From IMG/VR virus record IMGVR_UViG_3300018416_002166, positions 1 through 30,496 of that record: a stretch of 30,496 bases of DNA, one strand, 5' to 3'. Numbering within the stretch: position 1 is the stretch's first letter; each line of letters starts with the position of its first letter. Positions 2,153 through 14,510 of the stretch are shown here, piece after piece. Made by a program: the position numbers and the translations under genes. The notes under the pieces were generated by a model, which was not told the DNA's origin, made no database searches, and was given only the letters and a program-made list of their open reading frames with translations. The DNA is from a virus.

Positions 2153-2161
2153 GTATTTATG
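2153..2161 (-). promoter_or_regulatory. Late promoter element overlapping the bilin reductase stop
   Basis: The minus strand reads CATAAATAC, ending 7 bases before the ATG at 2145. By T4 geometry the start site would fall about 3 bases before that ATG. No Shine-Dalgarno is visible. Confidence 0.55.
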
Positions 2162-2855
2162 TTAGTTTGGGGAATAGCATATCAGTGCAGAACTTGTCTA
2201 CATCTGCTTCATCAAGTCCTAGACTTTTCATTACGTTAGGTGTATGTGGATTTTGTTGCTGATTATGGCAGTAATAATCTTGTGCCGCAGAAACTAATGC
2301 TATATCGCCTTCGCCTTTACTAGCACCTACTTCACTAAAATAAGCACGTAAATTAGATGTTGCAATACGTATAATTTCATCTGCCTCTTCGTCTGTACGC
2401 ACATTGCCTGCTGCTAACATTTTATCAGTAAAAATGTTCTGTGCCCATTCAGGTAATTCACGTTGCTTTTTAGGAACAAAGTGTTCTACACTTTCTCTAT
2501 ATCCGTCAATCATAGGATGGTCTGGATCTGCACTTGCACTAAAATCGTGAAAGGCTCCTGTCATCTTATTTTTGCCTGCAATAACATCAAAGCCGTATAT
2601 GGGTGCAGGATTATCTAATGTTGGGAATAAGCATACGTGCATCATCCATAAGCCTTTAGATGCACGAGCATCTACTACATCAATATGAGCTCTTCGTACA
2701 TAATCATTAGCCCAAACACGGTTAATCCAACCACCATCGGGCCTATTAAAATAATCAAGTCCGGGTTCAGATATTTCTTTAGCATTCTCTTCGAAGATAT
2801 CGATAATTTCATCTTTACAGGCTATTAGTTTGTCCCATAAACTACTCTGTGACAT
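2157..2855 (-). CDS. pcyX: Ferredoxin-dependent bilin reductase (PcyA/PcyX type)
   Basis: HY2-family enzymes reduce biliverdin to phycobilins with electrons from ferredoxin. The 232-residue product aligns by eye along the length of cyanobacterial PcyA. AHIDVVDA (57-64) matches MHLELAK, GLWMMHVCLFP matches the segment holding PcyA His88 (here H73), and YGFDVIAG holds the catalytic Asp (PcyA D105, here D90). YYCHNQQQ near 194-201 matches the conserved C-terminal motif. The residue equal to PcyA Glu76 is Asp59 here. It overlaps the heme oxygenase gene by 14 bases, so heme to biliverdin to bilin forms one unit. From memory, PcyX of non-cyanobacterial marine phages makes phycoerythrobilin; this gene fits that group by neighbourhood and likeness to PcyA. 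The exact product cannot be read from sequence. Confidence 0.85.
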   Translation of the reverse strand: MSQSSLWDKLIACKDEIIDIFEENAKEISEPGLDYFNRPDGGWINRVWANDYVRRAHIDVVDARASKGLWMMHVCLFPTLDNPAPIYGFDVIAGKNKMTGAFHDFSASADPDHPMIDGYRESVEHFVPKKQRELPEWAQNIFTDKMLAAGNVRTDEEADEIIRIATSNLRAYFSEVGASKGEGDIALVSAAQDYYCHNQQQNPHTPNVMKSLGLDEADVDKFCTDMLFPKLT

Positions 2856-3387
2856 ATTCCATCATTTCCTTGAATAACTCTGTAGCATAATCAAAACAAA
2901 TCTTTGCTTCTTCTGCCATATCATCATTACATTTTGCTCTAATCTTTTCTTTGTATTCATTTACATCACAATCAAAAGAATAATAACGTCCTTCTCCTGG
3001 AATACGTTTTTTAATCATTTGACCTCCACTAAGGTCGCCCATATGTCTTACGTAGATATGCGCCATAAGTTTTTGTGGATCATCCATAATACTTTTTAAG
3101 TGTATCAGATATTTTTGTGTGCTTTCACATACCTTAGGTGGCTCTGCATCTTTAGGCCATAAGTCGATATAGTCGCTTAGGATTGCACTGCGTCTTTTGA
3201 TATTAGGAATATCAGCAAGTAGTCCGTGCTGATCTGCGAACAGTTCTAATACTTCGTATGCAGGAAATTGATTGTATAGATATCTAGCATATAATAGTGG
3301 GTCAATCTTGCCGCCCATTAATTGTTTTACAAATGCTTGACGTTCAGCATTAGTGTGATTTTCTTTTGTTAATTCTTTTAGATTCAT
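2842..3387 (-). CDS. ho1: Heme oxygenase
   Basis: Heme oxygenase cleaves heme to biliverdin, carbon monoxide and iron using ferredoxin-type electrons. The 181-residue protein has the proximal heme-ligand region LTKENHTNAE with His11. The distal-helix signature YVRHMGDLSGGQ (about 112-123) is nearly invariant in the family. I chose the ATG at 3385-3387. An upstream in-frame ATG at 3438 would add 17 residues lying inside the preceding gene and not fitting the family. The chosen start is one base after the upstream stop, with a GGGAAG Shine-Dalgarno. The downstream bilin reductase start overlaps this gene. In cyanophages and in some phages of other hosts heme oxygenase is likewise next to a bilin reductase. 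Freed heme iron could also matter in iron-poor seawater (inference). Confidence 0.93.
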   Translation of the reverse strand: MNLKELTKENHTNAERQAFVKQLMGGKIDPLLYARYLYNQFPAYEVLELFADQHGLLADIPNIKRRSAILSDYIDLWPKDAEPPKVCESTQKYLIHLKSIMDDPQKLMAHIYVRHMGDLSGGQMIKKRIPGEGRYYSFDCDVNEYKEKIRAKCNDDMAEEAKICFDYATELFKEMMEYVTE

Positions 3388-3388
3388 T

Positions 3389-3613
3389 TTACACTTCCCA
3401 TTTATTTTTGTTTTCAATAGCAAAACGACATCCTTCAATGTAGTCTGTATCTTCTTCTTGCATTACTCCACAAAATTTAGTAATAGTGTCTATGTGTTCT
3501 AACACTACTTCTGGACGTTGTAGATGATAATTAGACTCCATCCAGCCTTGCAATATATCCATACGCTGTTTTACTTTAGCCTGTATGGGATTGCTAAGAT
3601 CGTAATCTGTCAT
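3389..3613 (-). CDS. Unknown 74-residue protein between clpS and heme oxygenase
   Basis: I do not recognise this family. The product is soluble, acidic and mostly helical in character (MTDYDLSNPIQAKVKQRMDI at the start, ending NKNKWEV), with no signal peptide or membrane segment. Its start overlaps the clpS stop by four bases (ATGA) and its stop is one base before the heme oxygenase start, so it is translated as part of the clpS to bilin-reductase operon. It is probably an accessory of this operon, but nothing in the sequence shows a function. Confidence 0.75.
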   Translation of the reverse strand: MTDYDLSNPIQAKVKQRMDILQGWMESNYHLQRPEVVLEHIDTITKFCGVMQEEDTDYIEGCRFAIENKNKWEV

Positions 3614-3912
3614 TCTTCAACTACTTGTATTTTTAACGGAGAGCCATTTGCTCTTGCGACTGAAGTTGCTTCTAGTGCTAATTGTTCTGCTACTTCATAG
3701 GAATATATGCCAACGGCTACTTGGCCTTTGTTGTGTATTTCTAATGTAAGTTGTTCAGCAGTTTGGACTTCGTGATGGAAAACACTTACTAGTATATGTG
3801 TAACTAAATCCATTGGCGTAACATTATCGTTTAGAAAAATGACTTTGAACATCTTGGGATATGTTACGTCCACATTTATTTTTTCTTCAATTGCAATATC
3901 GTCTTTAGACAT
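3610..3912 (-). CDS. clpS: ClpS, N-degron adaptor of ClpAP protease
   Basis: ClpS binds the ClpA N-domain, delivers proteins with N-end-rule residues, and in E. coli inhibits ClpAP degradation of ssrA-tagged proteins. The 100-residue product is a full-length ClpS core. It has FKVIFLNDNVTPMDLV (22-37), VFHHEVQTAEQLTLEIHNKG (44-63) and a C-terminal PLKIQVVEE strand. Pocket residues equal to E. coli N34, D35, M40 and H66 are present as N28, D29, M34 and H60. E. coli D36 is replaced by N30. The start has a GGTTAGGA ribosome-binding site. It heads a tightly overlapping operon that continues into the bilin genes. Transcription probably comes from the hsp20 side through the hairpin at 3925-3952. Confidence 0.93.
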   Translation of the reverse strand: MSKDDIAIEEKINVDVTYPKMFKVIFLNDNVTPMDLVTHILVSVFHHEVQTAEQLTLEIHNKGQVAVGIYSYEVAEQLALEATSVARANGSPLKIQVVEE

Positions 3913-3959: not shown

Positions 3960-4406
3960 TTACTTAACCTCGATAGTTCTTGGTTTCTTGCTTTCTGGAA
4001 TAATTCTTTCCAGTGCAATTTTCAATAAACCATCTTTAAGTTCAGCACCTTGCACTTCTACATCATCTGCAATAGTAAATGATTTTGTAAAGTGTCTTTT
4101 GCTGATACCTCTGTAAAGTACACCGTCATCAGTGTCTTCTGCTTTAGTTTCGTGGATAGACTTGATAGTAATTACGCTATCTTTAACTTCTACGTCAATA
4201 TCCTTTTTGTTAAAGCCAGCCAGTGCTACTTCAATATCATAAGTATATTCACCTGTCTTATTGATATTGTAAGGCGGGTAATTGCCGCTTGAACTGTTCA
4301 TAAAGAACTCGTCATTCAGCATTGCTTCGAAACGATCAAACATCGGATCGAACCCAATAGTTACTGGTCTTAGTTGATTTAAAATAGATAGATTTTTGCT
4401 TGTCAT
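3960..4406 (-). CDS. hsp20: Small heat-shock protein (Hsp20/IbpA type)
   Basis: This is an ATP-independent holdase chaperone with an alpha-crystallin domain. The 148 residues have a variable N-terminus (LRPVTIGFDPMFDRFEAML is typical of the IbpA class). The crystallin domain spans about residues 45-138: YDIEVALAGFNKKDIDVEV, then ITIKSIHE, then ISKRHFTKSFTI and ELKDGLLKIALER. A short C-terminal tail follows. The IbpA-type IxI tail motif is weak (RTIEVK). The start has a perfect AAGGAGG Shine-Dalgarno. The gene has its own late promoter element, a 5'-terminal hairpin and a hairpin terminator, so it is a self-contained late unit, presumably strongly expressed. Hsp20 is common in T4-like marine phages, where it is thought to help virion protein folding. 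Confidence 0.95.
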   Translation of the reverse strand: MTSKNLSILNQLRPVTIGFDPMFDRFEAMLNDEFFMNSSSGNYPPYNINKTGEYTYDIEVALAGFNKKDIDVEVKDSVITIKSIHETKAEDTDDGVLYRGISKRHFTKSFTIADDVEVQGAELKDGLLKIALERIIPESKKPRTIEVK

Positions 4407-4438
4407 AGTATTTCCTCCTTATTAAGCAAGTTATTACC

Positions 4439-4461
4439 TTGTAACCCTTTCGGCGTTACAA
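4439..4461 (-). promoter_or_regulatory. 5'-terminal hairpin of hsp20 mRNA
   Basis: On the minus strand TTGTAAC pairs with GTTACAA. Inside, CC-GAAA-GG closes a GNRA tetraloop, with one G bulged. The hairpin begins at the start site predicted from the late element, so it would cap the transcript, a position where hairpins commonly protect mRNA. Confidence 0.5.
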
Positions 4462-4463
4462 AA

Positions 4464-4472
4464 GTATTTATC
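4464..4472 (-). promoter_or_regulatory. T4-type late promoter element for hsp20
   Basis: The minus strand reads GATAAATAC, identical to the elements at 1145, 22392 and 26754. It lies in the short gap after guaC and before hsp20. Confidence 0.65.
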
Positions 4473-4475
4473 ACA

Positions 4476-5636
4476 CTAGTTTCCGATAGTAGAATTTTCA
4501 TATACCGAATTGTGTGTTTGTGTACAACGCACAAACGTTGTACATCTACTAAGATGTTTAAGCCTAATAGCACCTGCATACGTGCAACTACTACGGACCC
4601 CTCCTAGTATGTTTTGGATAGTATTAGCAACTGGTCCTCTATATGGCACCATTACTGTCCTACCCTCACTTGATCGATAATCTTTCAATCCATCAAAGTG
4701 TTTGTCGTTCGCGGATTTACTACTCATTCCGTAGAACTGTACAAACTGTTGTTTTTCTGTAACCACGATGCCTTCGTGATCTACTTCATTTGTATTATAA
4801 AGTTTTGTAATAATATCGCCGCCACCTTCATCGTGTCCTGCTAACATTCCGCCAAGCATTACATAATCTGCGCCGCCTGCAAATGCTTTAGCAATATCTC
4901 CTGGTGTAGTACAACCGCCATCAGCAATTACGTGTCCACCAAGACCGTGAGCAGCATCTGCGCATTCAATAACTGCACTAAGTTGTGGATACCCTACTCC
5001 TGTTTGAATACGTGTAGTACAAACACTACCCGGCCCAATACCAACCTTTACGATATCTGCGCCTGCAAGAATAAGTTCTTCAGTCATTTCGCCTGTAACA
5101 ACATTACCTGCAATAATAACAATGTTAGGATAGTTTTGTCTAAAGCCACGTACAAATGTTGCAAATCTTTCTGAGTATCCATTAGCAACATCAATGCAAA
5201 CATACTTTAGTTGACTACCTACTTGTTCGTATACACTACGGAACTTGCTGTGATCTCTGTCAGTAATACCAATACTCATTGCTACATACTGAGTACGGTC
5301 AATGTTGTCACTGTCAAAGTAACTTACTAAATCGTTAACAGCATATGTCTTAACAAGACAAGTCATAATTTTTTGTTCAGCAAGTTTATCTGCTATTTCA
5401 AATGTTCCAACACCGTCCATATTACTTGCCATAATAGGAATACCCCTATAATGTCTATGTGGTGTAAATGTAGGATAGCCTGGCTCACCTGTTGGTTCAG
5501 GAATAATTTCTGGCTGATAGTTTCTAAAAGTAAAACCTCTTTCTAGATCTACTTCTTTACGACTACCTAGTGTGCTACGCTTAGGACGAATTAATACATC
5601 CTTATAGTCTAATTTCATATCTTCTTCAATACGCAT
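4476..5636 (-). CDS. guaC: GMP reductase
   Basis: GMP reductase converts GMP to IMP with NADPH and ammonia release, feeding the purine interconversion pool. The 386-residue product matches E. coli GuaC almost end to end. It starts [20 protein letters not shown] and carries the catalytic loop [11 protein letters not shown] with Cys206. [26 protein letters not shown] and FYGMSS then appear in the right order. The shared MRIEED start fixes the initiation codon. Compared with E. coli (347 residues) there is an extra segment of about 19 residues near 39-63, rich in Pro and Gly, and a slightly longer C-terminus. The stop of the exonuclease gene lies two bases upstream. With nrdAB it supports nucleotide recycling for phage DNA synthesis. 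IMP dehydrogenase is excluded because no CBS domains are present and GuaC-specific segments match. Confidence 0.95.
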
Positions 5637-7023: not shown

Positions 7024-8853
7024 CTATTCTTCCTTCTCTATTGATTTTTTTATCTGTTGTTTGCCGTCTTTCTCTATCCAATTTGTAACGGTCATCCTTT
7101 TTTTTTGATCTTCTACAATTTCTGTGTATTGTGGCTTGCCTTTTAGTTCTTCTTCTAATTCAGGCATAATTTTATACTTTGATTCGTCTTGGTAATCTGC
7201 TTGTGGCTTTAAGTACTTCATCCAAGGAAGTTCTTCTATTTTACCTTGCTGATGTAACTTACGTTGATACTTTACACTATTGCGATTATCTTCTGCTTTC
7301 CATTTTGTAATAGCAGCCTGCTCTTGTTCGCTTAGTCCTTGTACAAATTCTTCGTCATCTTCAGGATTTTCTACAGCAGCCTTGTTCGCAGCCTCTACCC
7401 AGTTGTTCCATTTATCTAAATCGTCACCTGGAACTTCAACTTCTTTATCGAAATCAAGTTCCATTTGATCTTCATTTTCTTCTAGTGACTTTTCATATTC
7501 AAAGCCTTCCTGAAGCATTTCAGAAAGACTTTGTTCTTTATTGTTATCTGGGTCTACGTCTGACCAAAGTAAGTATTGGTTAGAGTTTTTTTTTGAAAGG
7601 ACCGGCGGAACGTTTTCAGCAATTTTCTTTGCTCTATCAAACTCATTGTTTAGTCGATGTGCTTCGTTCCATTGTTCTTCTGTGTATGGTGGTTCAGGGT
7701 CGTTAGGATCTTCTGGATCCGGATCTGGCTTTCCCGGCAAACTACCGCCTTTACCTTCTCTTGCATACTGAAAACTATACTGCGATGCAATAAGCAATAA
7801 TACTGCTAAAGGATCAAACACAAAGATAATAATAATGATTACCCAACGCACTGCGGCTTCTAGTAAATCATTATCAGCATTTTCACCGTAAATAAATTCA
7901 GCAATATATTTAATTGGTCCTACTTCTGCTTCTAATTTACGATACTCTTTTTCGTAACCAAACTTTTCTTCATTGACAGCATCAATTTTTGTTTGTTCTG
8001 TTTCAATAAATGTTTCTAGTTCAGTAATACGTCCATCGATATCTTCTGTCTTATTATTTGCTTGATTACGCAAATCATTAATACGTTGATTGATAGAAGC
8101 AATGTCAGCACTATATTTGTCATCAATTGCTTTTAGATCTTTATCTAATTGCGTGTTGATAGCAAGTATTTCTTTTTGTGCTCTTGAAGCAACACTTAGT
8201 TCGTTATTCTTTGCTTTAGTAACGGCTGCTTCATATTCTTTAGATCCGCCGAAAGACCCTTCAAATTTTTTCTCAGCGGCAGCAATTTCTGCATCACGTC
8301 TGTCTTGTGCTTGTTTGATACGTGTTTGTTGCTGTTCTACTTTAAACTTTGCATCTGCTCTTAATGCATCTTTTTCTTTGTTAATACGAGCATAAATTTT
8401 GTCTAAGCCTTCTTGTTCTTTATCGATAAGTCCGTCAACTCTAACGTCCTCACCTTTCATTAGTCGATCAAGTTCGCCGCGCCATCTTTCAATTTTTGCT
8501 TGGCTACGTGTTTCCTTATCATTAAGTGTATCGATAAGAGCAACTTGTTCTTGTGATAGGCTAGTCTGTTCAATGTGTGCTTTAGATAAGAATCCAAAGA
8601 TACCCATTGATGTAATAAACATAAGAACTAGTACTGCTACTGCTAGGTAACTTTTAAGCCACCATACAGCACGACTCCAATGTCTGTGAAGCCAAACTGC
8701 TGTAACTAGTTTTCCTACTTCTAATGCTACACCCATTACTATGATGGGAATAACAGCGGCTGCGAAGATCGCGGCAAGTCCTGCGACTGAGTAGTATATC
8801 GCAATTGCACTAATAGTTAGTGCGCATATAAATGTTAATATTCCTAGTACCAT
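7024..8853 (-). CDS. Large coiled-coil membrane protein (DUF4407-like layout)
   Basis: This 609-residue protein is of unknown function. Three membrane segments lie near residues 4-24, 26-47 and 66-88. A long charged coiled coil follows (about 95-315), with repeats of the kind KAKNNELSVASRAQKEI. A fourth membrane segment at about 337-356 reads WVIIIIIFVFDPLAVLLLIA. The C-terminal 240 residues are acidic and low in hydrophobics, with many Pro/Asp/Glu (GKPDPDPEDPNDPEPPY). The arrangement recalls DUF4407 proteins, and similar membrane coiled-coil proteins occur in T4-like marine phages. No Shine-Dalgarno is seen: AATAAATA lies 7 bases before the ATG, suggesting a near-leaderless late transcript. 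It may act on the inner membrane during infection (inference). Confidence 0.75.
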   Translation of the reverse strand: MVLGILTFICALTISAIAIYYSVAGLAAIFAAAVIPIIVMGVALEVGKLVTAVWLHRHWSRAVWWLKSYLAVAVLVLMFITSMGIFGFLSKAHIEQTSLSQEQVALIDTLNDKETRSQAKIERWRGELDRLMKGEDVRVDGLIDKEQEGLDKIYARINKEKDALRADAKFKVEQQQTRIKQAQDRRDAEIAAAEKKFEGSFGGSKEYEAAVTKAKNNELSVASRAQKEILAINTQLDKDLKAIDDKYSADIASINQRINDLRNQANNKTEDIDGRITELETFIETEQTKIDAVNEEKFGYEKEYRKLEAEVGPIKYIAEFIYGENADNDLLEAAVRWVIIIIIFVFDPLAVLLLIASQYSFQYAREGKGGSLPGKPDPDPEDPNDPEPPYTEEQWNEAHRLNNEFDRAKKIAENVPPVLSKKNSNQYLLWSDVDPDNNKEQSLSEMLQEGFEYEKSLEENEDQMELDFDKEVEVPGDDLDKWNNWVEAANKAAVENPEDDEEFVQGLSEQEQAAITKWKAEDNRNSVKYQRKLHQQGKIEELPWMKYLKPQADYQDESKYKIMPELEEELKGKPQYTEIVEDQKKRMTVTNWIEKDGKQQIKKSIEKEE

Positions 8854-12276: not shown

Positions 12277-12921
12277 CTAGTTTTTCATTTTCCCTTGTAA
12301 GTATTTTAACAAGAGTCCATATGCTGGTAGGAATACAATTAAGCCAACTACAATTTTGGTTAGTGTATTGTTCTGTGCAACAATATGCCAGTTCTCACCA
12401 ATCCAAGTTAAGTTGCCTTCTGCATCTGTTGAACCTGCAAATGCGACATAAAAGAATGAGTATGTATCAATGATGTTTGCGGCAATAGTAGAAATTGCTG
12501 GAGCAGCCCACCACGCACTTGATCGTTCTCTAATTGCTTGGAATACATACACGTCAAGCATTGTACCAATTGCATATGCAGTACCTGATGCAAAGCCTAC
12601 TCTGTATGCGTGTTCGTCACCTAGTGCTAATAGCACAAGTACCGAAGCAATAATTGCAGGAATAATTGCCATTGCAACAACGGCTCTACCTGCTTCTTTA
12701 CCAACCATCCTTACTGTAAGGTCAGTTGCTACAACAACGATCGGAAACGTAAACGCTGCCGCCGCTAGTGGAAATGATCCAAACAAGGGCAATTCTGCAC
12801 CTGGAAATAAATCAAATCTAATAGTTACTAGATAATTTGACACAGCAATAACCAGCGTGTGTAAAATAACTAGATTTCTAACTAGTGCCTTATCGACACC
12901 ATTTAGTAATGTTGTGAACAT
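12277..12921 (-). CDS. yhhQ: YhhQ/VUT-family queuosine-precursor transporter
   Basis: YhhQ proteins import the queuosine precursors preQ0/preQ1 across the inner membrane for tRNA or DNA modification. The 214-residue product has about six hydrophobic helices. It carries the family signature FPIVVVATDLTVRMVGKEAGRAVV (about residues 59-82) and later IRERSSAWWAAPAISTIAANIIDT. The length is normal for the family (E. coli about 220). The start has AAAAGGAG six bases upstream. It follows the peroxiredoxin gene by 21 bases and ends at a strong terminator. No queuosine biosynthesis gene is seen in the window. In phages such transporters may feed tRNA modification or 7-deazaguanine DNA modification; which applies here cannot be told. 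Confidence 0.88.
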   Translation of the reverse strand: MFTTLLNGVDKALVRNLVILHTLVIAVSNYLVTIRFDLFPGAELPLFGSFPLAAAAFTFPIVVVATDLTVRMVGKEAGRAVVAMAIIPAIIASVLVLLALGDEHAYRVGFASGTAYAIGTMLDVYVFQAIRERSSAWWAAPAISTIAANIIDTYSFFYVAFAGSTDAEGNLTWIGENWHIVAQNNTLTKIVVGLIVFLPAYGLLLKYLQGKMKN

Positions 12922-14012: not shown

Positions 14013-14043
14013 TTGATTGTTCCTTCTCTTGAATAAGATTAGT

Positions 14044-14345
14044 GCAACTTTTCTGTTGCCAGGTAAGTTGCCAACCCCGTCACCTAGTTAGACTAGGCAG
14101 CAAGAGCAAAGTTTTCGTTTGCGTCTATAGTTTTGGACAAATAGCGTGAGTCTCCCCACATATGCTCGGTCGTTCCTTACCGGTAATCTCTTTCACCCTT
14201 AACAAGTCAGTCGATCCCATTTCGCCCCCATCAAAAACACATTGGGATCATATTGTACCTTATAGGCCTTGATACGAACATAGGCCAATGTGTTTTTGGT
14301 GGAGGCGCCGGGTATCGAACCCGGGTCCTGCCCTTGCGACATACG
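14044..14345 (-). ncRNA. ssrA: Circularly permuted two-piece tmRNA
   Basis: tmRNA rescues stalled ribosomes and adds a degradation tag. Reading the minus strand, the acceptor piece comes first. It has a T-arm CCGGG-TTCGATA-CCCGG, then acceptor strand CGCCTCC, A and encoded CCA (14297-14299). A 67-base spacer (14230-14296) follows, and then the coding piece beginning GGGGGCGAAATGG at 14229. GGGGGCG pairs with CGCCTCC over 7 bp (one G-U), so the acceptor stem joins the two pieces. The tag frame starts at GCA (14120-14122) and reads A-N-E-N-F-A-L-A-A then TAG (14093-14095). A 7-bp hairpin, GCAACTT/AAGTTGC, ends the coding piece. This order is the form found in alphaproteobacteria and some cyanobacteria. 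The outer ends are approximate. Confidence 0.95.
14233..14297 (-). repeat. 13-bp inverted repeat bracketing the tmRNA spacer
   Basis: AAAAACACATTGG (14233-14245) and CCAATGTGTTTTT (14285-14297) are perfect complements. In the precursor RNA they fold the intervening segment into a long hairpin that brings the two pieces together, presumably for trimming by host RNases. Confidence 0.85.
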
Positions 14346-14368
14346 ATGACGTCAACAATTACTCTTTA

Positions 14369-14397
14369 TTTATAGCATAGGATTCTTGGACTGTCAA
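14369..14397 (-). promoter_or_regulatory. Sigma70 promoter for ssrA
   Basis: The minus strand reads TTGACA, 17 bases, TATAAA. The predicted start is near 14362, leaving only about 20 bases before the acceptor piece, so there is no room for a leader riboswitch. Confidence 0.8.
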
Positions 14398-14416
14398 CTT
14401 ATTTTTTAATCCAAGT

Positions 14417-14510
14417 TGGTAGTCCTGGCGGGAGTCGAACCCACATCGCTCTCTAATCTGGAGACTGTGCCGAGTATAAGCCGGGTGTTTTACCATTAAA
14501 CTACAGGACC
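14417..14510 (-). tRNA. tRNA with long variable arm, anticodon loop reads UAU (Ile?)
   Basis: The 94-base gene folds as a cloverleaf. The acceptor is GGTCCTG/CAGGACT (one terminal G-U) with discriminator A and encoded CCA (14417-14419). The D arm is GTTT-AATGGTA-AAAC. The anticodon stem is CCCGG with TCGGC (one mismatch, one G-U) and the loop is CTTATAC. The T arm is GTGGG-TTCGACT-CCCGC. The loop gives anticodon UAU, which would read the isoleucine codon AUA. Between anticodon and T arms lie about 24 bases that can form a TCTC/GAGA hairpin, a class-II-sized variable arm not expected for tRNA-Ile. Identity is therefore uncertain, though a tRNA or tRNA-like gene is well supported. It lies just upstream of ssrA on the same strand. 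Confidence 0.8.

Follow-up and report, generated by a model that had tools for sequence, protein, structure and literature searches.

The permuted tmRNA gene and its neighbours

The window, by which is meant the whole stretch of 30,496 nucleotides analysed here, contained a complete circularly permuted, two-piece tmRNA gene on its minus strand at approximately 14362–14041, and ARAGORN and two Rfam models concurred on this identity. ARAGORN called a tmRNA* at 14389–14002 (minus strand) with the tag ANENFALAA; the alpha_tmRNA model (RF01849) matched positions 14401–14041 with 114.6 bits (E = 7e-31; gathering cut-off 50 bits); and the tmRNA_permuted model (RF04321), which describes the general permuted form, matched 14362–14093 with 114.9 bits (cut-off 47 bits). 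The original prediction, that a phage-encoded permuted tmRNA with its acceptor piece first would be found and would match the alpha_tmRNA model, was therefore borne out. The span given for it (14044–14345) was at the right locus, although slightly short, as the gene reaches approximately 14362 upstream, and the strand (minus) had not been given.

The acceptor half is encoded 5' of the coding half, and the same order was seen in nearly all tag-bearing viral contigs. It occupies 14297–14362 (minus strand) and was delimited from Rfam and the sequence as the 3' tRNA-like piece, consisting of the T arm, the 3' strand of the acceptor stem, a discriminator A and an encoded CCA that closes the half at 14297. 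The 3' acceptor strand, CGCCTCC (14301–14307, minus strand), pairs with GGGGGCG at 14229–14223, such that the predicted 7-bp stem does form between separately encoded ends; it includes G3.U70, the alanine identity element. Between the halves lies an intervening spacer of 67 nt (14230–14296, minus strand), and both folding and comparison with relatives placed a closing helix beneath the acceptor stem (approximately 14298–14285 with 14245–14232). In the minimum-energy fold (z = -3.9), the acceptor stem and this long spacer helix made one continuous stack.

The coding half (14041–14229, minus strand; ARAGORN and Rfam) comprises the 5' acceptor strand, the 5' tRNA-like domain, a pseudoknot-like element, the tag and the 3' domain. 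A resume frame is present, and the tag frame at 14093–14122 (minus strand), GCA AAC GAA AAC TTT GCT CTT GCT GCC TAG, translates as the predicted ANENFALAA, with its codons at 14122–14096 and the stop codon at 14095–14093; the tag ends in ALAA, an ALAA-type degron. The 3' terminal hairpin, GCAACTT-ACCTGGCAACAGAA-AAGTTGC (14044–14071, minus strand; Rfam and fold), has a loop sequence that also occurs in the alpha_tmRNA consensus. An extra hairpin, GTGGGGAGACTCAC (14146–14159, minus strand), follows the pseudoknot-like element and precedes the tag as part of a lineage-specific insert of approximately 22 nt. This hairpin, with a GGGAGACT-type loop, belongs to the subclade of the window, as judged from L016, L029, L341, L345–L349 and L354, and compensatory changes in it were seen in L016, L029 and L345–L349.

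The gene is preceded by a composite promoter, TTGACA-N17-TATAAATA (14367–14397, minus strand), recognized by a pattern count in relatives, in which a sigma70-like -35 box is combined with a -10 box equal to the T4 late-promoter consensus. A sigma70 promoter followed by a leader of about 20 bases had been anticipated here. The promoter was indeed present at 14397–14367, but most of the supposed leader belongs to the acceptor RNA as its 5' arm, because the RF04321 match starts at 14362, some 7 nt past the -10 box.

A tRNA-Ile(UAU) gene with a long, class-II-type variable arm (14417–14510, minus strand; ARAGORN and Rfam) immediately precedes the tmRNA. Its isoleucine identity is questionable; the same tRNA adjoins the tmRNA in six relatives (L016, L029, L074, L077, L133 and L138). 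Elsewhere on the minus strand, the window encodes a ClpS adaptor with an adjacent Hsp20 gene (3610–3912), a phage bilin-synthesis cassette, in which heme oxygenase stands beside a ferredoxin-dependent bilin reductase (2157–3438), and a Vut_1 (PF02592) transporter-like membrane protein (12277–12921), which we take to be possibly involved in queuosine-precursor transport. The window's NrdA was approximately 70% identical to those of Mosig and HTVC008M; this relatedness and the heme oxygenase/bilin reductase pair fit a marine T4-like phage. An Rfam match to mir-3167 at 7532–7501 was below the cut-off and was dismissed as chance.

Conservation among relatives and the composite promoter

A degenerate scan for the tag identified 85 IMG/VR viral stretches that encode ANENFALAA, and in nearly all of these a CCA lay 100–340 nt upstream of the tag, as the permuted layout requires; chance is excluded because so many stretches encode the tag and nearly all are permuted. 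Nearly all tag-bearing stretches also had a 7/7 acceptor stem in a scan that accepted 6/7. Across 102 distinct loci the stem was fully paired without exception, a figure that is partly by construction since the extraction demanded a fully paired stem; the separate 7/7 result and the two-sided changes are free of this selection. Two-sided covariation affected three of the seven acceptor pairs (4:69, 5:68 and 6:67), at which pairing fell to 44–76% when partners were shuffled. Both G3.U70 and ACCA were invariant (102/102). The equivalent spacer helix was 97% paired among 89 relatives, again with covariation.

Taken as a comparison of sequences, this pattern is that expected of a functional, phage-encoded permuted ssrA gene, and a probability of roughly 0.85 was assigned to this reading. 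The window tmRNA is a further member of a kind already published, namely the phage permuted tmRNAs of Melnitz and Mosig. It might otherwise be supposed that the gene came in with host DNA and persists passively, unused by the phage, given that ssrA often serves as an integration site and that prophages hold host-derived fragments (discussed in PMC9004378). This is very improbable, however, when identity elements are invariant and the stem covaries over 102 distinct loci, when the tag is lineage-specific and the promoter dedicated and conserved, and when the flanking genes are those of a phage (NrdA/B, peroxiredoxin, a glycine-zipper protein and a CHAP lysozyme).

The promoter was found in its strict form at 46 of 54 distinct tag-bearing phage loci and in a relaxed form at 53, and its distance from the CCA was fixed at 73–79 nt. 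In 1.0 Mb of the same phage DNA (both strands) there were 47 matches to the strict form, of which 46 were the scored tmRNA promoters; the 47th was in L016, a contig with two tmRNAs. The composite promoter is thus nearly exclusive to the tmRNA, and this near-exclusivity is new here. A near-consensus scanner missed it, as this required T at position 6 of the -10 box and the window's box is without that usual final T of sigma70 sites; the direct pattern count settled its presence. By itself, TATAAATA was no more frequent in the window than expected (3 occurrences versus 3.0). As a motif, the T4-type late sequence is both present and conserved at the tmRNA loci, and in cyanomyoviruses, where the late motif is NATAAATA/TATAAATA, early and late promoters overlap (PMC2984593). 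Since a sigma70 -35 box is joined to a T4-late -10 box, the promoter is probably usable both early, by host sigma70, and late, by a gp55-type factor.

In L073, L109, L119 and others, the sequence between the -35 and -10 boxes of the tmRNA promoter looked palindromic, as with ACATCTTAGCCTAAAGATGT in L073, and ran into the 3' end of the gene before it; these palindromes may be operators. The corresponding sequence in the window was not palindromic.

Melnitz EXVC044M, a Methylophilales phage, offers the closest comparison for transcriptional control. Like the window, it is a T4-like marine phage with a permuted alpha-type tmRNA (PMC9004378); its ssrA is preceded by the same TTGACA-N17-TATAAATA promoter, and its spacer arms (TAAACAC.../GTGTTTATGAT) are likewise alike. 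It differs in its tag (ANDNYVPVDYALAA), in a spacer of 142 nt that holds a 54-aa open reading frame, in its genome neighbourhood, and in having a glutamine riboswitch right downstream. The Melnitz ssrA has been described as 'controlled by' that riboswitch (PMC9004378). However, in the Melnitz record (L367) the alpha_tmRNA match covers 4182–4599 and the riboswitch (RF01739) 4607–4655, starting 8 nt downstream, between ssrA and the gene for the late-transcription coactivator (4912). The published account is accordingly corrected, in that coordinates put the element downstream of the gene and not upstream.

As predicted, the window itself had no glutamine riboswitch (Rfam search, E up to 1), nor was one found in 13 related virus records, and from this absence a control mode distinct from that of Melnitz, with separate regulatory evolution, had been proposed. 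That proposal did not survive the comparison and is highly unlikely, because the two genes share the composite promoter and the Melnitz riboswitch is 3' of ssrA. In Mosig the riboswitch is approximately 19 kb away from the tmRNA.

Tag distribution and the host

Among genomes of 84,980 species, ANENFALAA was found on no permuted tmRNA. There were 16 matches to the tag in this set; 12 belonged to one-piece tmRNAs of Clostridia, spirochaetes and others, while the remainder gave no tmRNA call with ANENFALAA. Alphaproteobacterial genomes, examined as a sample and with coordinates for part of the genome-search matches, mostly had ANDN...LAA tags, and some small, AT-rich genomes had ANDNEMALAA or similar. 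Comparison with bacterial tmRNAs by blastn gave at most approximately 98 summed bits. The phage tag is its own tag lineage, rather than a copy from any sampled host.

The cultured Pelagibacter phages Mosig and HTVC008M, like the window, have permuted tmRNAs with short tags ending in ALAA that match alpha_tmRNA above the cut-off, but their tags differ (GEDNFALAA and ANFNEYALAA, respectively) and no composite promoter was found in their leaders. Alphaproteobacterial ssrA (RF01849; Caulobacter-type) shares the acceptor-first order, the tRNA-like domain, the pseudoknot-like element and the ACCTGGCAACAGAA 3' motif with the window. In contrast to the window, these copies score 150–310 bits and most of their tags are of the form ANDN....LAA, with 10–15 aa; bacterial spacers are mostly 12–61 nt, against 67 nt in the window.

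The original prediction had also held that the host lineage could be read from the permuted ssrA, and this the results did not support. Permuted tmRNA occurs in betaproteobacteria and cyanobacteria and not in alphaproteobacteria alone. The window scored 114.6 bits with the alpha model versus 71.5 bits with beta_tmRNA; its nearest relative, L103, had the opposite preference, with 118.2 bits for beta_tmRNA and 111.8 bits for alpha. Melnitz infects OM43 yet carries an alpha-type tmRNA, which is a host mismatch (PMC9004378). L103 prefers the beta model, Melnitz mismatches its host, and the 84,980 species gave no permuted tmRNA with the tag; the tmRNA is thus a better marker of phage lineage than of host.

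Three viral contigs (L100, L086 and L146) had one-piece tmRNAs with the same ANENFALAA tag, which suggests convergence or exchange of the tag. Two permuted tmRNA genes were found in L016 (8159–8493 and 9090–9481); they differ in their tags (ANDNFASEDYALAA and ANENFALAA) and are separated by two tRNA genes, and this contig has the strict composite promoter twice.

Probable nested spacer genes and the proposed role of the tmRNA

The spacer varied from 12 to 245 nt within this phage tmRNA lineage, and its content was related to its length. Where it was at least 110 nt, 17 of 22 distinct loci had an open reading frame led by a Shine-Dalgarno (SD) site that filled at least 75% of the spacer, as against none of 107 distinct loci with spacers below 110 nt; spacers of 100–109 nt (L092, L090, L269, L271 and others) had no SD-led frame. 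Dinucleotide shuffles matched the observed coverage in 0–3% of trials for most such clusters. Nested frames were recorded at L136, L138, L242, L281, L302, L307, L326, L087, L091, L265 and L089, and also at L286, L133, L245, L145, L150, L108, L128, L341, L354 and L363; for these 21 loci plus Melnitz, most of the nested genes had an SD site. The Melnitz frame (54 aa, behind GGAG) is at 46096–46257 of MZ577097.1, where it stands unannotated under 'SsrA'.

One family of 62 aa recurred in six spacers whose tmRNAs differ in tag. Judged by its dN/dS of 0.12–0.20, with synonymous difference of up to 62%, this family is under purifying selection. Its homologue in Melnitz is gp85, a free-standing gene directly upstream of ssrA that ends over the -35 box. 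For the family of the L354 frame, L270/L287 had a diverged copy within the spacer, and many further copies lay at other places on these contigs; the 68-aa spacer frame of L136 resembled DUF2061 (E = 2e-4, just under the cut-off). For the 41-aa MYYV and the 68-aa DUF2061-like nested proteins, there was no match in isolate phages.

These comparisons make it likely that the spacer, a stretch ordinarily discarded, serves as a nesting site for small translated protein genes within one rescue-RNA transcript. At some loci, the SD site and stop codon fall within the closing helix of the spacer, where ribosomes might conceivably compete with processing. The window belongs to this lineage, and its own 67-nt spacer has no convincing open reading frame; a frame of 16 codons (ATG TTC GTA ... 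TGA) was rejected as a gene, being without a ribosome-binding site and without counterpart in L103, L016 and L029. Although they lie outside the window, the spacer genes of its relatives are a surprising lead. In the part of the source available, the 2025 tmRNA database lists 79 phage tmRNAs and describes one tRNA gene and one repeat in permuted spacers, with no protein gene mentioned (PMC11915505). The nested frames would be protein genes of an unannotated class, hidden within the gene for a non-coding RNA, a stretch that automatic annotation skips once it is labelled tmRNA.

With respect to function, the sequence specifies a single precursor from the promoter at 14397–14367, held together by the long spacer helix, with its halves joined by the covarying 7-bp acceptor stem. 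Host RNase P, together with the nucleases that process tRNA 3' ends, would excise the spacer, and the mature two-piece RNA, in which G3.U70, A73 and CCA are kept as required by alanyl-tRNA synthetase and EF-Tu, would be charged with alanine. With host SmpB, it would release ribosomes that stall on broken mRNA in the course of infection; AANENFALAA would be added to nascent chains, and host ClpXP-type proteases would degrade the tagged products. Early and late transcription would keep rescue capacity up through infection. Two-piece processing, alanine charging and SmpB-dependent tagging are in this case inferred from the sequence; no SmpB was identified among the scanned open reading frames of the window, a 30-kb fragment.

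It has also been proposed that such a tmRNA is mainly a degradation device, with which the phage marks host proteins for recycling or adjusts proteolysis early in infection, with rescue being secondary (PMC9004378). The phage-specific tag is consistent with this, as is the ClpS adaptor encoded in the window, since E. coli ClpS lowers the affinity of ClpAP for ssrA-tagged proteins (PMC8138137). With tmRNA and ClpS in one phage, the phage may influence the pathway at either end, although a functional link between the two is speculation. Yet the only chains that a tmRNA tags are those on stalled ribosomes, so it makes no selection of host proteins, and with a late-type -10 box its expression need not be early only; degradation as the main role is therefore rather unlikely. 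Under the preferred reading, i.e., ribosome rescue by a functional permuted tmRNA, a large group of marine phages maintains a ribosome-rescue RNA that has a tag and a promoter of its own, which makes phage control of trans-translation testable in culture, with Melnitz and its host OM43.
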